Part shown: positions 13,157-26,093 of the stretch, piece by piece
How positions within the stretch are numbered: position 1 is the stretch's first letter
How the letters are laid out: every line of letters begins with the position of its first letter
Translations under genes and position numbers: made by a program
The notes under the pieces: generated by a model
What the model was told of the DNA's origin: nothing
The model's input: the letters and a program-made list of their open reading frames with translations, nothing else
The model's database searches: none
Assembly (NCBI RefSeq): GCF_025024155.1
Contig: NW_026251730.1
Span: 310,001 to 374,000 of the forward strand
Reading direction: 5' to 3'
Source of the DNA: Gamsiella multidivaricata
Taxonomy: Eukaryota; Mortierellomycota; Mortierellomycetes; Mortierellales; Mortierellaceae
DNA: 64,000 nucleotides

Positions 13157-13840
13157 GTTTTTTTAAGAGGAAGGAGCGGTTGAGTTGGCGTCAGTAGTGG
13201 CGAAATAGGAAAATGAGATGTCCCTACCCTTGCGGCATACTTTCCACTCGGTGTATATATCTTTTACTTTTGTGTACACGCTGAACTTGGGCAACCCTTT
13301 CGCAATGAAGTTCGACCTTGAAAAACTTTATTTCACTTTGGAAAATGGTTTCGCAAACTGTCTAATGTGCCTGGACTCTCCTGGATATAGCTATCGTACT
13401 ATTCCGCTGTCTATAGTGTCTATAGTGTCTATAGTGGTTGCGCCTTTGTTTCCTGCACGATAGACCACGCTTCGATTAGTAGCTTTGTTCCGACGCCATG
13501 TACACTTTTTTTTTTTCTTTAAAAAAAAAAAAAACCATGAAAAACCCTGCCCAAATCAACATTGACGGGAACGAAAAGGGCGGAAAAAGTCAAATAGTCA
13601 AATAATCAAATACCGGCCTATGTTCTCGACTGCTGAACTTCGTGGCCAAAACTCAACATGTCGCCTTCACTGAAGGCACAGGCGTCCTAGAAAATGGTGG
13701 CGAAAGGTCAATTGAGTGCATGGGTGGTGCAAGAACAATTGAATACCTAGATGACAAAAGTCAACTGAGAAAATGGTGGCAACTTCCATTTATGGCTAAG
13801 ATGCGCGACCCAAGCGGTCGAACACACAGAAGCTATTCTT

Positions 13841-13850: not shown

Positions 13851-13998
13851 AGCTCAACTGTCCCCCGGTCTCTTCATATCCTCATTAGCGCCTTTAGTTT
13901 TGATCGCAGCCTTCCTTCTATCAGCTATCCATTCTTCCTTCGCACCTTGCTTCCTTCACCATCTACTTTTTCAATCACCCCTACCCTCCACGCCAACA

Positions 13999-15717
13999 AT
14001 GGAAAAGGAATCCATCTTTGACAGCCCTCTGGTCAAGAGCGAGGTTGCAAAATACCTCTCCAACAATGATCTAGCACAGTGTGCTCTCGTCTCCAAGAAG
14101 TGGTCTGCCTGGTTCCTTCCTGCCCTCTGGCGCTCCATCAAATTCGAGCCGCCATCAACGATCTCACCTGAGGGTCTGAAACGACATCAAGATCATATCC
14201 AGTCCCTCCAAGGTTGTCAAATTAACTTGGCGGCTCGGCCCCACGTTTGGTCATATCCTAACCTCACGTCGCTTGAGTTTGGACCCGGTTTCGGTCGCCA
14301 CGGTCGTCGAGTGGACCTTGCGACCTTGAAAATGGTGGCAGGATCGCCTCATTTGGAGCATCTCAAGATATCGCTCAATCTCGACCATGTGGATGTCTAC
14401 CAAGAACTGAGGCGGGTTCTTCAGTCGCTGACTCGGCTAAAGAGCTTGGAATTGCACCTCACTGAATTTATCGATCTGGTTGTCATTCAGGATATTCTGG
14501 AGATATGTAGCCGAGTCAAATTCCTATCAGTATTTCTGGATGGCGCGGCCTACGCTATCCCAGGAGACGAAGGAGCTCAGCTCAAGCTCGCAACGGAGGC
14601 CATGAAGCGCATGCAGGACACCCAGGTCCAGCACTTGGAGTTCCAGGCGACTGACGAGATCCTCGAATTGTCGATTTTGCCATTGTTTTTAAAGAAATGT
14701 CCCATGTTGGAGAGCCTCAGCCTGCCATCACTGTGCCAGGAGCAGACAATGGAACAAGTGGTAGAGATAATCAAGGAGAGAACATGTCCGAGACTGAAGC
14801 ATTGGAGCCACGGTCGTATTGGCTACAGCGGAATGGTGGAAGATCTTTTCTTGGAAACATTTCGAGCAACCAAGTCTGGCACCGGCGAGTACGGCAGTGA
14901 TAGAGATTGGATGGAAGGTGGTCTGAAGACGATCGCAGTGGGGTACCTAGTGGCACTGGACGAACGCGTAATTCGAACAATCACGGAGTATCATGGTACG
15001 ACACTGACAACCATGAATACTCCCGGTTTCACCATGGACCTCCCATCCCTCACGCTACTTTTGAGCGAACTCCCAGCGTTGAAGTCCTTCAAGGTTATGG
15101 TCACTTTACCATACGCATCGACGTACGATCCGGACTTGGAGTTGACAAAGAAGACTTCGTGGGCCTGCACTGGGTTGAAGCATCTAGAGTTGAACTTCAA
15201 CACTACGGGAACCTTCAGTTTCCCTGGAGGAAAACGCTGGGATGTTTCAGTAGAGAAGGACTGTACGGACTATTTGTTTTCACAGATCGGGAGCTTGACG
15301 CAGTTGGAGGAGCTGGTCCTGAAATCGAGCGGCTTCGATCCATTTGTCTTGAAGAACGGATACCTGACACCGTTGTCTGGATTATCGAATCTCAAATCAT
15401 TGCGCCTGCCACGGCAATGCAACATACGTATGGGTGCAGAGGAGGCAGAGTGGATGGCCGAGAACTGGACAAGTCTGGTTTATGTCGCGATTGAGGTACC
15501 GCCCAGAGCTCTCGTATCAGATGGAAAATCGCGCGAGGCATTTGAGGCAACGTTGAAGGAGAAGCGGCCAAGCGTCGAGATCGGTCCTAGTCAGCCTTAT
15601 TCTCGCATGTGGTACGGAGGGGGTTTCGGCGCTCAAGCTGCTGGATTTGGTGGCTGGGATGTACAGAGTGGATTCGTCCCATTCCCTTGGATACGCCGAA
15701 CAATGAATATCAAATAA
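13999..15717 (+). CDS. F-box / leucine-rich-repeat protein, copy A
   Basis: This single-exon gene encodes 572 residues. The start is the ATG at 13999, in the context CCAACAATGG, which is identical in copy B; the frame upstream is open but lies in the leader. Residues 8-45 form an F-box-like segment (VAKYLSNNDLAQCALVSKKWSAWFLPALWRS). The rest is made of irregular leucine-rich repeats (LTSLEF, LEHLKI, LKSLEL, LESLSL, LKHLEL, LEELVL, LKSLRL). Such proteins usually recruit substrates to SCF ubiquitin ligases through Skp1; the substrate is unknown. The C-terminus is Gly-rich. Copy B is nearly identical over the first two thirds and differs more towards the C-terminus. Confidence 0.85.
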   Translation: MEKESIFDSPLVKSEVAKYLSNNDLAQCALVSKKWSAWFLPALWRSIKFEPPSTISPEGLKRHQDHIQSLQGCQINLAARPHVWSYPNLTSLEFGPGFGRHGRRVDLATLKMVAGSPHLEHLKISLNLDHVDVYQELRRVLQSLTRLKSLELHLTEFIDLVVIQDILEICSRVKFLSVFLDGAAYAIPGDEGAQLKLATEAMKRMQDTQVQHLEFQATDEILELSILPLFLKKCPMLESLSLPSLCQEQTMEQVVEIIKERTCPRLKHWSHGRIGYSGMVEDLFLETFRATKSGTGEYGSDRDWMEGGLKTIAVGYLVALDERVIRTITEYHGTTLTTMNTPGFTMDLPSLTLLLSELPALKSFKVMVTLPYASTYDPDLELTKKTSWACTGLKHLELNFNTTGTFSFPGGKRWDVSVEKDCTDYLFSQIGSLTQLEELVLKSSGFDPFVLKNGYLTPLSGLSNLKSLRLPRQCNIRMGAEEAEWMAENWTSLVYVAIEVPPRALVSDGKSREAFEATLKEKRPSVEIGPSQPYSRMWYGGGFGAQAAGFGGWDVQSGFVPFPWIRRTMNIK

Positions 15718-15888
15718 ATAGTGAGTGGTAGTAATACTCAGGTTTTTATTATTTTGGGAATAGGGTAAAAATTATGTTTCGAACTGGGTGTCTAGTCAGT
15801 TCGTGATTAATGGAGGCCGAACCGCATAGCGGATATGTGTCAGACATTGCGCTATCCAGCGTGGCTCCGGGGGATGGGGATATATGTA

Positions 15889-16783
15889 CAGTCCACTCCC
15901 GGATTAGCCGACAAAACGTCGCTTTAATCCGAATTTTCGTATTCTGTCAACGTCTGCCAATACAAATAATATGAGTGCTATCCCGTCCCTGTCTTCCTCC
16001 CATCCCCCATCCCCATCTCCACATCCACATCCAGATCCTCTTCCGAAGCTAAGACAAAGTCCTCGACGGCGACCGAGGTCATGGTGACAACGACCAAAGC
16101 TAGGGTGAAGTCTCCGACAACAGCAGGGGCATTAACAACCACAACCACAACCACAGCCGTATAAAAACTAACCAAACATCCTGCAAGGAAACATCCAGCG
16201 GCTAAGTCAAAGACGGCCACTCCATCGATAGCTTCAGCAGCTGAAACATCTACCAAAAAGAAATAGCGCAGAGTTATTTCGTTGGCCTTGAAAGCAGATT
16301 TCATCAAGGGTTTACGCACCGAACAACAACAGACAGGGGTATCCATCCTGCTGTGCTGCTGATGGGTTGGACAAACAGAAGCCGTTTATGCTGCGTAAGG
16401 CGAGTTTGCTCTGGAAAGCGCGCGTTTATCTACTCTACTTGCAGCCAAGCACAATCCTTGCAGCACTTTTTTTTTTTTTTTTTTTTTTTTCCGGCTTCGA
16501 TAAGCTGCTCTCCGTCCTAGAAACCTGGATTTGGACATGAAGGCAAGACTCAAAATTTTTCATGATTGGACAGGGTGCCGCGCTATGCTTCTTGATCGAA
16601 AGAAGCCTGGACAGTCTCTTGATCTCCGTGTTGCAGACCTGATGGCACTTGATGGAGGAGACAAGATACCAACTGTCTGACAGCGAGTGCCAGTCAGAGG
16701 AACGACAATAAATATTTTAAGTTTTGTTATACTTTTTGTATTGACAGACATTGACAGTTGTCGGCTAATCTGGGAGCGGACTG
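15889..16783. mobile_element. MITE-like element with pogo/mariner-style inverted ends
   Basis: The left end CAGTCCACTCCCGGATTAGC and the reverse complement of the right end CAGTCCGCTCCCAGATTAGC match at 18 of 20 bases. Both continue into CGACA and a shared inner block around TGTCAACGTCTGCCAATAC. The left end follows a TA dinucleotide, as expected for Tc1/mariner elements, but the right end is followed by TC, so the duplication is lost or was never there. The 895-bp interior holds a 26-base T run and Thr-rich or Val-rich ORFs but no transposase. It sits exactly at the junction between the two tandem F-box units. Confidence 0.55.
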
Positions 16784-16814
16784 TCCTCAACAACTGAACT
16801 TTGTGACCAAAGCT

Positions 16815-16823
16815 CACAGGCGT
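16815..16823 (+). repeat. Target-site duplication, left copy (CACAGGCGT)
   Basis: The nine bases directly before the left TIR are identical to the nine directly after the right TIR (24035-24043). The same nine bases occur once, uninterrupted, at 13677-13685 in the paralogous unit. Confidence 0.9.
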
Positions 16824-17490
16824 GAAGCTCTGAACCCATCCCCCTTTGTTCAATTTTTCACTGCAGAGGGGCTGGGACAAAATCTTTCACTTTCTTATGG
16901 GGTCACCCTTTAGTCCATTTTGCCCAAAAAAGGAAAGTGCTCGGTGGTTTTTTGTTCACGTGATCGTACGCGGGCTGCCCAAGCTTATTTCTTGCATCCT
17001 CTTCCTTCATGTCTCCTGTTACAGTGACAATCCACCTGATGAAGAGACCCGGCGCACGCCTCGCAAGTGCCTTCCCAAAACTCCCAACACTCCTGGAACC
17101 CTCCGCAGGACTTACAAAGCAAGGACACATTTTGTTACAGGAGTTGGGAGTTTGTAGCTGTTGGGGTTGTCACCCTTCCTGACGTCCTGACCCTCAATAC
17201 TGTATAGCGCAATGACATACCCACAGGTCTGATCTCCTTCAGCGCCAATATTCCCGTCGCGTCGTCCTTAGGAGGGAGTAATCCAGTGAGTACATACCGA
17301 TGATTGGCATGACAACAGTCACTCATTTCCAAGCACAATCCTAACGAACTTCTTGTCCTTTTATGTTTTTCTCTCTATAGGATACTCCGCAAGGAGCTAC
17401 TGAAGCCCCGCCCGTCCTGACTGGAGCGTGTTCCACTCCAGCGGCATCAATCTCCTTGCAGCTCGCCATGGCGTTCACCGCTGCAGAAGA
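16824..17490 (+). repeat. Left terminal inverted repeat (667 bp)
   Basis: Position x here pairs with 40858 minus x in the right TIR without any length change. No mismatch was noticed in the stretches compared, and three pairs of translated frames are identical. It contains the ATG at 17468 in a strong context (GCCATGGCG) and an intron-like segment 17286-17380 (GTGAGT to CTATAG). It also holds a hairpin-forming CTGGAG/CTCCAG pair near 17420-17442. The inner boundary is where the two coding frames diverge, after MAFTAAEE. Confidence 0.95.
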
Positions 17491-20100
17491 GTCCTTGCCA
17501 AACCCTTTCTGGTTGCCTGAGGAAGAACGTCAGTCTGGACAAGAAGCACATTCTTCACTGTATTTCCGCCTCCGGCGACTACAAGATATCGATTCGCCTG
17601 GACATTCTCGTGGACTCACAACACCATTTACATATGGAACTGTGCCGTCGTCGCTTGCACGAACAGTGGTATCATCTGTGCGCCTTTCTTCGCCACTTCG
17701 GCGGACTGTGTCGTCGCCAATTCAAATTGATTCTTCAGATTCGGACGCGTCTTCAGATGATTATGATTCCACGCCTAAAAAAACTTTCTCCACGCCCATC
17801 AAGCGAATGTCAACATGGAGGGAGGCTGATTGCACCCCACCGCCATATATCTCGACGCCAACATCGTCTCCCTCCACGTCCATGCAGCCGGAGCTGTCGC
17901 CCCTGCAGTTTCTATCTTCGCCATCGCATATTGTACACCAGATACATATACCATTAGTTCAAGAGCACGAAGACGACATTAGCGATTACTCTGTAAGTTA
18001 TTTCAACTAATGACACAGTCATTTGTATTGTAACATTTTAATCATCCTTTGCATGTTGTTTTACACACGCTGTATTCTTTTTTTTCAGACCTCCCCACTT
18101 ACTTTGAGGTCACAAGCCATCAGCACTTGCAAACAAGTTTTCCGCTGTGCACCAAAGGAAGAGCAACTGGAAGTTCTGTATAACATTGAAGCAAAGCACG
18201 ACTGTGTCTTAATTGCTCCTTGTGGCTGGGGCAAGACTTTAGCGTTTTTCCTGCCTATGGTGCTCTGGCCTCGCTCAGTAACCGTCGTCATCTCACCGCT
18301 GATATCTTTGATGGAGGATCAACAGCAGGTAGCTTTCAAGTACTCTTGTAACTGTACGATTGCATATGCCTTCAATAAATGTGTCTATGTTACACGACTG
18401 ACCCCGTCTTTGGATCCTGCCCTACAAATCGATAGAAGCTGGCCGCGGCCGGCATATCGTACTTCGTTCTAACTGGCGCCAACTCGGATGCTATTAACAA
18501 GGGTACGATCCAACGCGCACTAAATGGCGAGTACAGGGCTGTCTACTTCACCCCCGAGATCATTTTCAGCGGCAGCAAGGCAAATTTGCTTCAAGATCTT
18601 TGGCGGAACGAGCAATGGCGATCATTGTTGGCCGCAATAGTGATCGATGAAGTGCACTGCGTCGAGAAATGGGTCAAGTTTCGCGAGGACTATACACGCC
18701 TAGGTGATCTGCGTGTCTGGGCACCTGGAGTACCATTTGTAGGGCTAACAGCGACTCTCACAGCGGACGCTATCCTAAAAACTAAGGCCAAGCTTTTTTT
18801 GTCCAAGGCAACGACGATACGTGTGAACGAGGTTCGCACGAACTTGCGCCTCGAGGTGCACACTCAGCCCAAGGATGCCATGAAAGGCCTCCATAGACTT
18901 TTGCACAAAGAGAAGACCATCGTCTACTTTGATTCAATCGCTGTTCTCATCCGTGTTTTCAAATGTCTGCAGTGGATAAGGCCCGACCTGCAAGGAAAAC
19001 TTGGGTTGTACTTTTCAACCCTAGATGAACAGTACAAGAGGACGACCATGAAAAAATTTGTAGATGGGGACATCCTGATCCTGCTGGCTACCGAGGCTGC
19101 AGGAATGGGTGTCGACATACAGGATGTTGTTCAAGTGATTCAGTACGGGTAAGTTCATATGTTAATAGCATGGAAATTGAGCAATCAGAACGAAACAAGT
19201 TGTCGTATATTTGGGTCGTCAGTCCGCTAGAACGACACTTCTTAATAAAACAAGTAGACCAGAGCAATACCGAGTCACTTCAGCTCAGCCTTTCAAGACT
19301 GAGCTGGAAGGGGCCGGTTCTGATCTCTATATCTTGTGAGCCCAAAACATAACACAAGTTATTATCTCTAAAATATTTCGATATGCACTTGTGAATCATT
19401 TAGTTTTCCAAGGGACATGACAAGCTTGGTGCAACGGTTTGGCCGTGCAGCGCGACGCAAGGATATCAACGGCCGTGCGATTCTCTATGCTCCGCCAGTC
19501 TCTCACAAGACTGTTTCAGATGCACAAGTCCGCCAGTTCCTCCTGGATCACCACAGCAAAAAATGTCTTTGGAGGTTTATCGATGACTTGTTTGGCAACG
19601 AGATTCGTGTTTGCAACAACAACTGTTCAGCATGTCATACTGTTAATTGTCCCCCTCTACTCCCTAGTCGCATTGTCGCCAAATCTGTCATCAGAGGAAG
19701 ATGGCCGAAACGCTCGAAAGAGGAGAAGGCTCTGGCATTACGGGAACTGATATCATGGAGGAAGGATGCCTTCAAGAGGTGGCAAGCAACACAACGTTAC
19801 GCCAATGGTGCAGAAACCGGGATCCTGCCGGACATGACTGCCAAGAAGCTCTCGCAGCAATTCTCAGGGATCAGAACTGCTGAGGCAGTCGCAACCTTCG
19901 CATCTTCTTCCCTCTGGTTTCCTCGTGGAAACCCTCAGAATTGGTTCGTCGAGATCGCACAGCTGCTGGCTAAGATCAACAAGAATATTGATGATGGTCT
20001 CATACCAAGTAGCCAGCTGATAGTGGCGTTGGCTCCAGACCTACCAAACGACGGCTCTGACGGCAATGACGATGGAAGTGATGACGGGGAGGATAGATAA
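17468..20100 (+). CDS. RecQ-family DNA helicase of the transposon
   Basis: Exons 17468-17992, 18089-18328, 18436-19148 and 19404-20100 join in frame to 724 residues. After a Ser/Pro-rich N-terminal 170 residues, the helicase motifs come in order: APCGWGKT (Walker A), VVISPLISLMEDQ, DEVH in VIDEVHCVEKW, GLTATLT, then TIVYFDS, ATEAAGMGVDI and QRFGRAAR. A cysteine set (CLWRFIDDLFGN, then CNNNCSAC) matches the RecQ zinc-binding domain. No HRDC domain is seen. RecQ enzymes unwind DNA 3' to 5'; here it may serve transposition or repair of the donor site (inference). The start lies in the TIR. An upstream open path (ATG 17009, exons 17009-17153 and 17227-17285, then 17381 onward) would add 97 residues shared with the partner gene. 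Confidence 0.85.
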
Positions 20101-20311
20101 TTTTGTCCGCGTACCGCAACCAGTTGCCCACTCTATTCCCTCCACTTCCAACTCCTCTTTCCTCCTCCCTTTATTTTTACATCCGCTATTCCTTACTTTC
20201 TTCTTCTATCCTTTGTTTAGTTAGTCATGCTTTTTTTAATACTTTCATCTGCGTATTCAGAGCAGTATAACGGCAACAATAACAAAGTCATGTTCAAAAT
20301 AGTATTATATT

Positions 20312-23300
20312 TTAATTCTGATCGATAACATTTTCGAGATCCTCGGCTTCTTCAATGTCCACAGCATTACCCCACAGTGATGTATGATTATCAAAAAATC
20401 TTCCTATCGCGCCTCCGACCATCTTCTCTTCGCCAACACGCTGAAGATCAACCACCGGTGGTCCTTGTTCGCACTCGCCGGAAGTCCATAAAATGCCACA
20501 GCCTTGGAAGTTCTCCTGGATCCTCGAAATATCCAATGCAGTCGACGGCTTTTTGTGTCTAGTGCTGTTGGAACGAATGCCGACCTCTCGTTCGAACATC
20601 CGTGAAATGACCTGAAAGGTTTTGATGTTGGTGGAAATGGCGTCCTGGAGGTATTCCCAGCTCATGTTCGAGCCTTTGGCTGAAAAAATGGCTTTGATGA
20701 GATAGTTGTGGTTTTCCTGCATCATGTCCGTTGCCATCCATCCACCAGCGACGCCTTTCGGGTTCACAAGCATACTTGACAGGACCCTTCTCGCCCATTC
20801 ATCTGTCCAAAGATAGCGAATGCCATAGAGGAGGCGTAAAAGCTCTAGGGCATAATTGGTGTTGCCACCCCCATGCATCATTATAACGATGAATGGCAGC
20901 AAATGCTTGATGCGGCCAATATCGCCAGCTTTGATGGCCGCGCCAAGCTCAATGTAGACGGCTACATCGCGCAGGAAAAGAAGAGCGTTGGTATTGGCGG
21001 TAGTACAGGGAAGGCCAAGGAGCAAAGGCGAAGGCTGAGAGCAATATGACTTGGTGATGCTTTCTGTAATGCTCTGAACAGAAAGCTCCTTTGATACACC
21101 ACGATCCCGCAAAGACTGATAGAGCAACTGCACCTTCGCATCAAAGACTACCCGCAAGAGCTCATCGGTGGCGTGAAAGATGATCTTGTCCCTGCTTAGG
21201 CCCTTACGGTTCAGCAGACATGCAATCGATGCCAGGGTCCCAGGAAACTCTTTGGAGCCAAGGTGAGTCCTCCAAATGGTACCACACAAATTCATCTCCA
21301 AATGAAAAAGTTGGAGAACAGGATGTACCTGTCAAGTTTGAGGGATACTTTTAGTTGTCAAGGAATGTATATACAGGGCTATGCTCCTGTGTAACAATCA
21401 AGCACCTTCTTTCCGCCTCACATCACTCTTTATTAACTTTGACTTTCACGTACCCACGACAGGCTATGGTAGGGATCAGGATCGAAGCACCGGTGGACCT
21501 TGAGCGTCAGCAGCCTTGACACTGTCATTTGATCCCCAGCGAAAATTGTGTTCTTGGGATCGGCAAACCAGGCTTTTGGTAAATTGAGACCGACCTCCGT
21601 AATCCTCTGCAACACTGACAGGTTTCCTGCAATGGTAGACTCGTCTAGCTTCATGACTGGAAGTGGGAAAACAGTACTCTTGGTGAGGTCAAGTTGCTCG
21701 ACAGGAACAACAAGAATGACGGATGTTGTTGATCCTTCCGGTAACGAGCGCACAATGGAGTCCGAAACATGCGATTGGCAAGCATTTACAAAAACCTCAA
21801 GGTCGCCGTTGTTGGGGAAAAAAAGGTTGGCATCTGCCTCCGGCCTCTCCTCCACTGGACGAAAAAGAGTAGGTGCGGGCTTGCTCTTTTCTGAGGGTAA
21901 AAGGATGATGGTGGCAGCAGTGCCATTGTCGAAAATATCCCGTTTGTTGACGCGCTGATGATGGTGCTTAGCGGCGATATTGATATTATCGTAAACGACA
22001 TAAAAGTCGTTCTCCTTGACTGCCTGTATTACACGCCTGCACGCATCCCTGGTCAGCGACTTGAGGCAATTGCGAACTTGATTGTACGAGATCGAAAGCC
22101 CAAGGCCAGAAAGGACCTCAAGAACTCTCCTCGGACACCCAGTGCAGTGCAGAAAAATGCCAAGGATTGTCTGGAAAGCACTGGCTTTTTGTGACGACAT
22201 AAAGAGCAGCATTGCTGAAATGCAGCCGCGGACTGATGATGGCTTCCGAGCACGGTGACGCCTCAGTGCTCTTTTTGTGAGATTTTGGACAGGTACATCC
22301 TCTTTGAGCACGCCCTTCAAGAAACGCGTCAGGTACTTTGCGCCACCGCCTTTGCCACTGGTGTTGGGACCTCCATCCATATGTGCCTTGTCCTCCACCA
22401 TTCCATCATTCTTGTCATCTGCCGTGCCAGCAGCGTAGCGATTGAGGAAACCAAAGTCGTCAAGCAAGTAGCCGGCGATCTTCTCCTCTGTGACATCGGT
22501 ATGTGGAAGCCGCCATTCTTTTTTGACATCATTGTCACCCAGATGCCTGAGAGTGCGGTCGACGACGACATCGACGGCACTGTTGACAAACGATTCGTCC
22601 CACCGCTCATGCCTTTTGTCGTGTCGGAGCTGCTCGTCCCAGATCTGTATAAGTCGCCGTGGACCATGTGCCTCGTAGAACGGATTGGTGTAGTCAGTAG
22701 CTGTCTTGTCGTCAGACTTGAACAACTCAACAAGGAATCTAGGCAGGGACAAATCCACTGCTTTAATACATTCTAGAACCGTACAAAGTTTGTCTGACAT
22801 GGAGGACTGAAAATTATACATCCATCTGTTAGAAGCTAAGGCACTGAATACTGTAGCTCGTTTCATTTTCATCAAAGTCAATGCATTTTAAAATTCAAGT
22901 TGGCTGCTTACACGTGTTTTGCCACTGGAAGCTGAGATCAGCACAGTTGGGTCAGATCCTTGGCTCGTTGAGTCAGATCCTTGGCTCGTTGGGTCAGATC
23001 CTTGGCTCTCCGTCGAAGAAGAGCTGACCATCTAAGTAAACAATAGGATGTATAATGAATGATGAGTTCTTGACCATATCAGGTTCTCGCCAGAGAGCAT
23101 AAACATTTAAAACAGTATGTCTCATACCTCCAAGGCAAGTCGCTGTCGCTCCATCTCGGTTGCCCTAATATTGGCCAACTGTTTTGAGCAATACATTTAG
23201 CAAAACGCATATTGCATTAATAGGTCTGATCTTTGTCCACAAGTAACGCTTGACAACCTACACGTTTGGCAGATGGCGAAGCTAAAGCTGCAGGCACAAT

Positions 23301-23390
23301 TTCTTTGAACGCGCGAATACTTATGCCTTGGTCCAAGGGTGATTTGGCCATGTTGACTGCGAACGATTCTTCTGCAGCGGTGAACGCCAT
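20312..23390 (-). CDS. DUF6589-like protein, candidate DDE transposase of the element
   Basis: Five exons, 23390-23262, 23178-23128, 23031-22912, 22806-21454 and 21328-20312, join in phase 0 to 889 residues. The first residues (MAFTAAEES) come from the TIR and equal those of the helicase. The core resembles proteins annotated as DUF6589, which are expanded in basidiomycetes. Key blocks are VVYDNINI, AGDQMTVSRLL, FHLEMNLCGTIW and WMATDMMQENHNYL. They offer two aspartates and a glutamate in an order that would suit a DDE/RNase H-fold nuclease. The family name is from memory and the catalytic role is inference. The N-terminal part has a three-copy SQGSDPT/SQGSDST repeat. No zinc finger or chromodomain was noticed. 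Confidence 0.7.
22946..23008 (-). repeat. Three 21-bp coding repeats in the transposase gene
   Basis: Three consecutive 21-bp units, the middle one with a single change, encode SQGSDPT-like heptapeptides. The unit length keeps the frame, so copy number can vary without breaking the gene. Confidence 0.85.
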
Positions 23391-24034
23391 GGCGAGCTGC
23401 AAGGAGATTGATGCCGCTGGAGTGGAACACGCTCCAGTCAGGACGGGCGGGGCTTCAGTAGCTCCTTGCGGAGTATCCTATAGAGAGAAAAACATAAAAG
23501 GACAAGAAGTTCGTTAGGATTGTGCTTGGAAATGAGTGACTGTTGTCATGCCAATCATCGGTATGTACTCACTGGATTACTCCCTCCTAAGGACGACGCG
23601 ACGGGAATATTGGCGCTGAAGGAGATCAGACCTGTGGGTATGTCATTGCGCTATACAGTATTGAGGGTCAGGACGTCAGGAAGGGTGACAACCCCAACAG
23701 CTACAAACTCCCAACTCCTGTAACAAAATGTGTCCTTGCTTTGTAAGTCCTGCGGAGGGTTCCAGGAGTGTTGGGAGTTTTGGGAAGGCACTTGCGAGGC
23801 GTGCGCCGGGTCTCTTCATCAGGTGGATTGTCACTGTAACAGGAGACATGAAGGAAGAGGATGCAAGAAATAAGCTTGGGCAGCCCGCGTACGATCACGT
23901 GAACAAAAAACCACCGAGCACTTTCCTTTTTTGGGCAAAATGGACTAAAGGGTGACCCCATAAGAAAGTGAAAGATTTTGTCCCAGCCCCTCTGCAGTGA
24001 AAAATTGAACAAAGGGGGATGGGTTCAGAGCTTC
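23368..24034 (-). repeat. Right terminal inverted repeat (667 bp)
   Basis: It is the inverse of the left TIR, equal in length, and contains the ATG (23390) of the DUF6589-like gene. It ends with GAGCTTC against the right target-site copy. Confidence 0.95.
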
Positions 24035-24043
24035 CACAGGCGT
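24035..24043 (+). repeat. Target-site duplication, right copy (CACAGGCGT)
   Basis: It is identical to the left copy. The bases that follow (CCTAAGAAAATGGTGGCGAAAGG) match the uninterrupted site in unit A apart from one base. Confidence 0.9.
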
Positions 24044-24170
24044 CCTAAGAAAATGGTGGCGAAAGGTTTAAATGAGTGCTTCGGTGGCAAAAATCAACTG
24101 AGAAAATGATGGTAACTTCCATTTATGGCTCAGATGCGACCCAAGCGGTCGAACACACAAAGGCTTTTCC

Positions 24171-24180
24171 TACATATAAG
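24171..24180 (+). promoter_or_regulatory. TATA-like element of F-box gene B
   Basis: CATATAAG lies about 170 bp before the ATG and about 137 bp inside the right edge of the transposon insertion, so the core promoter was left with the gene. Confidence 0.5.
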
Positions 24181-24344
24181 ACGCTCTTCATATCTTCATT
24201 AGCGCCCTTTAGTTTTGATCGCCACCTTCCCTCTATCAGTCATCTATTCTTCCTTCGCATCTTGCTTCCTTCCCACCTTGTTTCCTTCCCATCTTGCTTC
24301 CTCCGTCATCTACTTTCAATCACCCCCTACCCTCCACGCCAACA

Positions 24345-26093
24345 ATGGAAAAGGAATCCATCTTTGACAGCCCTCTGGTCAAGAGCGAAGTTGCAAAATA
24401 CCTCTCCAACAATGATCTAGCACAGTGTGCTCTCGTCTCCAAGAAGTGGTCTGCCTGGTTCCTTCCTGCCCTCTGGCGCTCCATCAAATTCGGGCAACTT
24501 TCATTCGGGCAACTTTCAACGATCTCATCTGAGGGTCTGAAACGACATCAAGGTCATATCCAGTCCCTCCAAGGATATCAATTTAACTCGGCGGCTCAGC
24601 CCTACGTTTGGTCATATCCTAACCTCACGTCGCTTGAGTTTGGACCCGGTTTCGGTCGCCACGGTCGTCGAGTGGACCTTGCGACCTTGAAAATGGTGGC
24701 AGGATCGCCTCATTTGGAGCATCTCAAGATATCGCTCAATCTCGACCATGTGGATGTCTACCAAGAACTGAGGCGGGTTCTTCAGTCGCTGACTCGGCTA
24801 AAGAGCTTGGAATTGCACCTCATTGAATTTATCGAACCGGTTGTCATTCAGGATATTCTGGAGATATGTAGCCGAGTCAAATTCCTATCAGTATTTCTGC
24901 AAAGCGCGACCTACTTTATGCCAGGAGACGAAGGAGCTCAGCTCAAGCTCGCAACGGAGGCCATGAAGCGCATGCAGGACACCCAGGTCCAGCACTTGGA
25001 GTTCCAGGCGACCGACGGGAGCCTCGAATTGTCGATTTTGCCATTGTTTTTAAAGAAATGTCCCATGTTGGAGAGCCTCAGCCTGCCATCACTGTGCCAG
25101 GAGCAGACAATGGAACAAGTGGTAGAGATAATCAAGGAGAGAACATGTCCGAAACTCAAGCATTGGAGCCATGGCCGCGTTACCTACAGTGGAATGTCGG
25201 AAGATCTTTTCTTGGAAACATTTCGAGCAACCAAGTCTGGCACCGGCGAGTACGACAGTGATGGGGATTGGATGGAAGGTGGCCTGAAGACGATCGCAGT
25301 GGGGTACCCAGTGGCACTGGACGAACGCGTAATTCGAACAATCACGGAGTATCATGGTACGACACTGACAACCATGAATACTCCCGGTTTCACCATGGAC
25401 CTCCCATCCCTCACGTTGCTTTTGAGCGGACTCCCAGCGTTGAAGTCCCTCGCGGCTACGGTCACTTTACCAAACGCATCGACGCACGACCCGGACCTGG
25501 AATTGACAAAGAAGACTTCGTGGGCCTGCACTGGGTTGAAGTATCTAGATGTGACCTGCAACACTACGGGAACCTTCAAGGTCCCTGGAGGGAAACGCTG
25601 GGATGCTTCGGCAGAGAAGACCTGTACGGACTATTTGTTTTCACAGATCGGGAGCTTGACGCAGTTGGAGGAATTGATTCTGAGGACGGGCATGTTCGAT
25701 CCATTTATCTTGAAGAATGGATACTTGATGCCGTTGTCTGGATTGTCGAACCTCAAGACATTGCGCCTGCCACGGCAATACAACATCCGTATGGGCGTCA
25801 AGGAGGCAGAGTGGATGGCCGAGAACTGGACAAGTCTGGTTTATGTCGCGATTGAGGTGGTCTCCAGGGCTCTTGTATCAGATGAAAAATCGCGCGAGGC
25901 ATTTGAGGCAACGTTGAAGGAGAAGCGGCCAAGCGTCGAGATCGGTCCTAGTCAGCCTTATTCTCACATGTTGTTCGGAGGAGGTTTCGTCAACAATAGA
26001 CTTGGCGGATACAACAATGGATTTGGCGGCTGGGGTGTACAGAATGGATTCGTCCCATTCCCTTGGATACGCCGTTCAATGAATATCAAATAA
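24345..26093 (+). CDS. F-box / leucine-rich-repeat protein, copy B
   Basis: This single exon encodes 582 residues from the same CCAACAATGG start as copy A. The F-box-like N-terminus is identical to copy A through residue 48. Then a 15-bp unit is duplicated (24489-24518), giving FGQLSFGQLS where copy A has FEPPS. The LRR region is largely the same, with scattered amino-acid changes that cluster in the C-terminal half, and the Gly-rich tail carries a short insertion. The frame is intact, so the gene probably still works despite the 7.2-kb insertion about 300 bp upstream. Confidence 0.85.
   Translation: MEKESIFDSPLVKSEVAKYLSNNDLAQCALVSKKWSAWFLPALWRSIKFGQLSFGQLSTISSEGLKRHQGHIQSLQGYQFNSAAQPYVWSYPNLTSLEFGPGFGRHGRRVDLATLKMVAGSPHLEHLKISLNLDHVDVYQELRRVLQSLTRLKSLELHLIEFIEPVVIQDILEICSRVKFLSVFLQSATYFMPGDEGAQLKLATEAMKRMQDTQVQHLEFQATDGSLELSILPLFLKKCPMLESLSLPSLCQEQTMEQVVEIIKERTCPKLKHWSHGRVTYSGMSEDLFLETFRATKSGTGEYDSDGDWMEGGLKTIAVGYPVALDERVIRTITEYHGTTLTTMNTPGFTMDLPSLTLLLSGLPALKSLAATVTLPNASTHDPDLELTKKTSWACTGLKYLDVTCNTTGTFKVPGGKRWDASAEKTCTDYLFSQIGSLTQLEELILRTGMFDPFILKNGYLMPLSGLSNLKTLRLPRQYNIRMGVKEAEWMAENWTSLVYVAIEVVSRALVSDEKSREAFEATLKEKRPSVEIGPSQPYSHMLFGGGFVNNRLGGYNNGFGGWGVQNGFVPFPWIRRSMNIK

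Follow-up and report, generated by a model that had tools for sequence, protein, structure and literature searches.

Which transposon unites a RecQ helicase gene with a gene of the Pfam family DUF6589, and what is the task of each protein? The question is raised by a locus in the genome of the fungus Gamsiella multidivaricata (37.5 Mb, 180 contigs). The analyzed stretch of 64,000 nucleotides, C96:310001-374000 of this genome and called the window in the following, holds at 16824-24034 a DNA transposon of 7,211 bp, with ends, target-site duplication and both genes located where the original prediction had placed them. We are confident of the overall answer: the element, 7.2 kb in size, is a DNA transposon that has long inverted repeats and duplicates 9 bp of its target; it very likely belongs to the AcademH lineage, with DUF6589 as predicted DDE transposase and RecQ as likely dedicated helper.

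The terminal inverted repeats match perfectly over 667 bp, position 668 being the first mismatch, and the duplication CACAGGCGT is present on both sides. A search of the own genome presented four full-length copies at unrelated sites (on C96, C95, C1 and C148) with a rounded identity of 100 %. All four have differing flanks and an own 9-bp duplication (CACAGGCGT, ACATTTCTG, TGCCTGGCC and CTAAATACT), thus the copies originate from transposition rather than segmental duplication. Compared base by base, the C95 copy had no and the C1 copy one difference from the window copy, therefore the movement was recent. The C148 copy carries its inner part in opposite orientation. A full empty site was not found: the match of the joined flanks to a tandem paralogue at 13677 (76.9 %) sets in with the first base of the duplication and does not extend across it. 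Two tandem paralogues, F-box/leucine-rich-repeat-like by the look of their sequence, border the element (13900-15717 and 24294-26093).

The gene on the minus strand, convergent with RecQ, was modeled with five exons and encodes a protein of 889 amino acids with a Pfam match to DUF6589 (PF20231, E=2.6e-88). At E<=1, Pfam listed besides only DUF2053 below the cut-off, i.e., neither a transposase domain of Mutator-like elements (MULEs) nor a hAT family. Long inverted repeats and 9-bp duplications are characters of MULEs, and both are present here, yet with no MULE family in the Pfam result a Mutator-like element with a diverged transposase is very improbable. In fold comparisons of two predicted DUF6589 models, nearly all listed matches were DDE recombinases (Hermes, Tn5, RAG1, P element). 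The nearest was the hAT transposase Hermes, with which the model would share an RNase H-like core and a long helical insertion ahead of the glutamate. The DUF6589 elements differ from Hermes in lacking a hAT match and in duplications of mostly 9 bp, whereas hAT transposons create 8-bp duplications and have no helicase gene. The D-D-E triad was near-invariant among 165 DUF6589 homologues. Judged by predicted fold and conserved triad, DUF6589 is very probably the transposase of the element, of the DDD/E type, and to this extent the proposal that its core is the nuclease was borne out.

The RecQ gene on the plus strand was modeled with four exons and 724 amino acids; the splice sites of both gene models were picked from sequence alone, without RNA data (Table 1). 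The protein matched the Pfam families DEAD (E=3.7e-21) and Helicase_C (E=5.1e-16), and WRN, RecQ1 and BLM were its best solved relatives, indicating a superfamily 2 helicase core with RecQ helicases as nearest group. Defined ends, a duplication and two genes, as predicted, are in place. The predicted zinc site was seen by eye as a four-cysteine cluster (C-x15-C-x3-C-x2-C) at the position expected for RecQ, whereas RecQ_Zn_bind (PF16124) was not among the Pfam matches at E<=1. Subtelomeric RecQ helicases (PMC4522978) were dropped as comparison; the part of that source at hand does not describe them within an inverted-repeat transposon. RecQ intron 3 contains a repeat of about 155 bp (window 19200-19354) without Rfam match, with copies of 88-89 % on C166, C45, C40 and C66. 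Rfam families were not detected within window positions 15500-25500.

Table 1. Features of the transposon in window coordinates
Feature	Coordinates	Strand	Remark
Left target-site duplication	16815..16823	.	CACAGGCGT
Left terminal inverted repeat	16824..17490	+	First bases GAAGCTCTGAACCCA; 667 bp identical to right; includes start codon (17468) and initial codons of RecQ
RecQ exon 1	17468..17992	+	Start MAFTAAEES
RecQ exon 2	18089..18328	+	Walker A region, GWGKT
RecQ exon 3	18436..19148	+	DEVH box
RecQ exon 4	19404..20101	+	GRAAR motif, cysteine cluster, stop
DUF6589 exon 5	20312..21328	-	E756, third catalytic candidate
DUF6589 exon 4	21454..22806	-	D373 (YDN) and D525 (GDQ)
DUF6589 exon 3	22912..23031	-	
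DUF6589 exon 2	23128..23178	-	
DUF6589 exon 1	23262..23390	-	Start MAFTAAEES within right inverted repeat
Right terminal inverted repeat	23368..24034	-	
Right target-site duplication	24035..24043	.	CACAGGCGT

Is the helicase gene a passenger? Twenty-four PF20231 matches in the genome were merged into 17 DUF6589 loci, and 42 of the 59 RecQ matches entered the count of pairs, the weakest 17 (E 1.2e-6 and above) being left out. A RecQ match was located within 2 kb, always convergent, at 16 of the 17 loci; the sole unpaired one is a 174-bp match on C149. Eight of the 24 merged RecQ loci had no DUF6589 neighbor. Distances among the RecQ proteins and among the DUF6589 proteins, compared as matrices for nine pairs of this genome, were correlated with a Mantel r of 0.95, or 0.92 (p 5e-5) after removal of one near-duplicate; the three further copies of the window element and C96, as duplicates, as well as C94, C125 and C137 were left out of this comparison. 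Against the C22 relative, RecQ had a ratio of non-synonymous to synonymous substitution (dN/dS) of 0.30 over 688 codons and DUF6589 one of 0.13 over 754 codons, dS being close to saturation. Because a convergent RecQ accompanies 16 of 17 DUF6589 loci and the two proteins co-diverge, RecQ is a long-term partner of DUF6589 and not a passenger, in agreement with the mobilized partner that had been proposed. Across species, a comparison of locus tags by eye revealed no neighboring DUF6589 and RecQ genes; P0009 and P0166 of Linnemannia gamsii both lie on a 126,007-base contig, probably the same one. A RecQ gene without DUF6589 match, a 619-residue open frame, is located at C117:277497-279065. Its distance is 0.54-0.65 to the transposon RecQs versus 0.75 to the presumed host RecQ, and it may be a helicase that stands alone or was captured.

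Other DUF6589 genes of this genome also reside within inverted ends and 8-9-bp duplications, as anticipated. Both ends were read at 11 of the 17 loci (left out: C15, C147:190-194 kb, C94, C125, C137 and C149). Nine of these 11 insertions had an exact 9-bp duplication, including all four of the window element, one had 9 bp with a one-base gap and one had 8 bp. Two copies with 99.9 % identity, on C99 and at C96:37783-43099, have perfect repeats of 420 bp and the duplications GAGGGGTCG and GGTCCATGG; the C118 element has perfect repeats of 629 bp and the duplication GGGAAATTC. On C147, an outer element (duplication TTTAGGGGT) contains two others, nested in the last bases of its right terminus; their duplications are GGAACGAGC and GATGGGAAC, the latter one G short on one side. 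The C22 element is flanked by the 8-bp duplication TGGTGGCA. Among the element ends, GAAGCTCTGAACCCA and TAGGCTCG followed by CCA represent two types that are related to each other. The nested arrangement (C147:7771-25623), with both insertions in the final ~20 bp at the third element's right end, suggests a taste of the elements for each other's ends. At C22:51249-55700, another insertion, with GGAGACCCC on its flanks, splits the C22 element in its right repeat. It has an open reading frame matching NDC10_II (PF16787, E 7.5e-9), and one of its ends resembles those of DUF6589 elements. We take this insertion to be perhaps a tyrosine-recombinase (Crypton-like) element.

These insertions also bear on KolobokH, a RecQ-bearing Kolobok described from fungi only. 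KolobokH is likewise described as a fungal DNA transposon with a RecQ helicase, but the duplications observed here are 8-9 bp long and of varied sequence. Kolobok duplicates TTAA, which was observed in none of the 11 insertions. The gene layout differs as well, RecQ being convergent on the other strand and not downstream of the transposase domain. For a group of hAT, P, MuDR, Kolobok and Dada, a C/DxxH motif between the second D and the E is described. The DUF6589 proteins had no shared C/DxxH; the pattern occurred anywhere in 63 of 154 proteins, and the best shared column comprised 22 of 154. KolobokH is thus an extremely improbable classification.

The repeats contain more than the ends. In the window element the start codon of each gene lies within an inverted repeat, and the first nine residues are common to both proteins. 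The common N-terminus comprises the first 54 residues in the C99/C96 elements and 29 in the middle C147 element. Starts within the repeats were present in four of seven elements checked and are not universal; the longest reading frames of C118, the inner C147 element and C22, which is interrupted, did not show shared starts. In the window element, where each gene starts in one of the inverted repeats, the two genes probably use the same promoter sequence, which would be kept identical along with the ends. Such features could define a separate DUF6589-RecQ superfamily with convergent genes, one promoter and start exon in the repeats, and joint homogenization of ends, promoters and N-termini, and would count mushroom DUF6589 genes as its unrecognized transposases. 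We regard this extended proposal as unlikely.

The classification draws on published descriptions. The AcademH lineage of Academ DNA transposons was reportedly set out by Kojima in 2020 in Mob DNA 11:15. Gamsiella belongs to the Mortierellomycota in the taxonomy used; older schemes place this group in the Mucoromycota. AcademH is described as encoding a helicase and having 9-10-bp duplications (PMC10045372), and ranges over Basidiomycota, Ascomycota and Mucoromycota (PMC10799480). Fungal Academ copies are described with PF00270 and RecQ-family (recQ_fam) domains and as often annotated as host genes (PMC6416283). Our element shares with the latter PF00270 and the RecQ-family domain, although that description, as far as available, does not name the transposase domain. 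With AcademH it shares the helicase gene, the duplication length, the occurrence in fungi and the DDD/E superfamily, the last by predicted fold and triad; the 8-bp duplication of the C22 relative is a difference. As helicase type, 9-10-bp duplications and fungal occurrence agree with these descriptions, the element very likely belongs to AcademH, a match at the level of description. The pair of RecQ and transposase genes is not new, as a RecQ-family helicase has been published for Academ copies of fungi. The original prediction, which knew of no described superfamily with this gene pair, is not supported in this point: on architecture, an existing superfamily is matched by description.

A superfamily of its own, apart from Academ and defined by DUF6589 transposase and RecQ, has in its favor that the likeness to Academ is by description only. 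In the open-access literature, 'DUF6589' was found in no paper, 'PF20231' only in an unrelated one on nanophotonics, and DUF6589 was not found named as AcademH transposase, most subscription papers being outside this search. An alignment search aimed at animal Academ proteins yielded 249 matches, the best 120 of which were all fungal PF20231 proteins, none named Academ. Against the agreement with the available Academ/AcademH descriptions in helicase type, duplication length and fungal occurrence, a superfamily of its own is quite unlikely.

For the very likely AcademH element, a mechanism may be proposed. DUF6589 would bind the element ends, which have GCTC in common and CCA a few bases on, and its D373/D525/E756 site would cut them. 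The same protein would join the ends to the target at positions staggered by 9 bp, and repair would create the duplication. RecQ may remodel or unwind DNA, at the ends or during repair. The four near-identical copies with open genes make the element well suited to an initial test of the role of a transposon-borne RecQ. Should DUF6589 be the AcademH transposase, a mechanism would be gained for a curated Pfam family whose function is unknown, and many genes annotated as hypothetical in Mycena, Armillaria, Lentinula, Schizophyllum and the Mortierellaceae would become recognizable as transposons.
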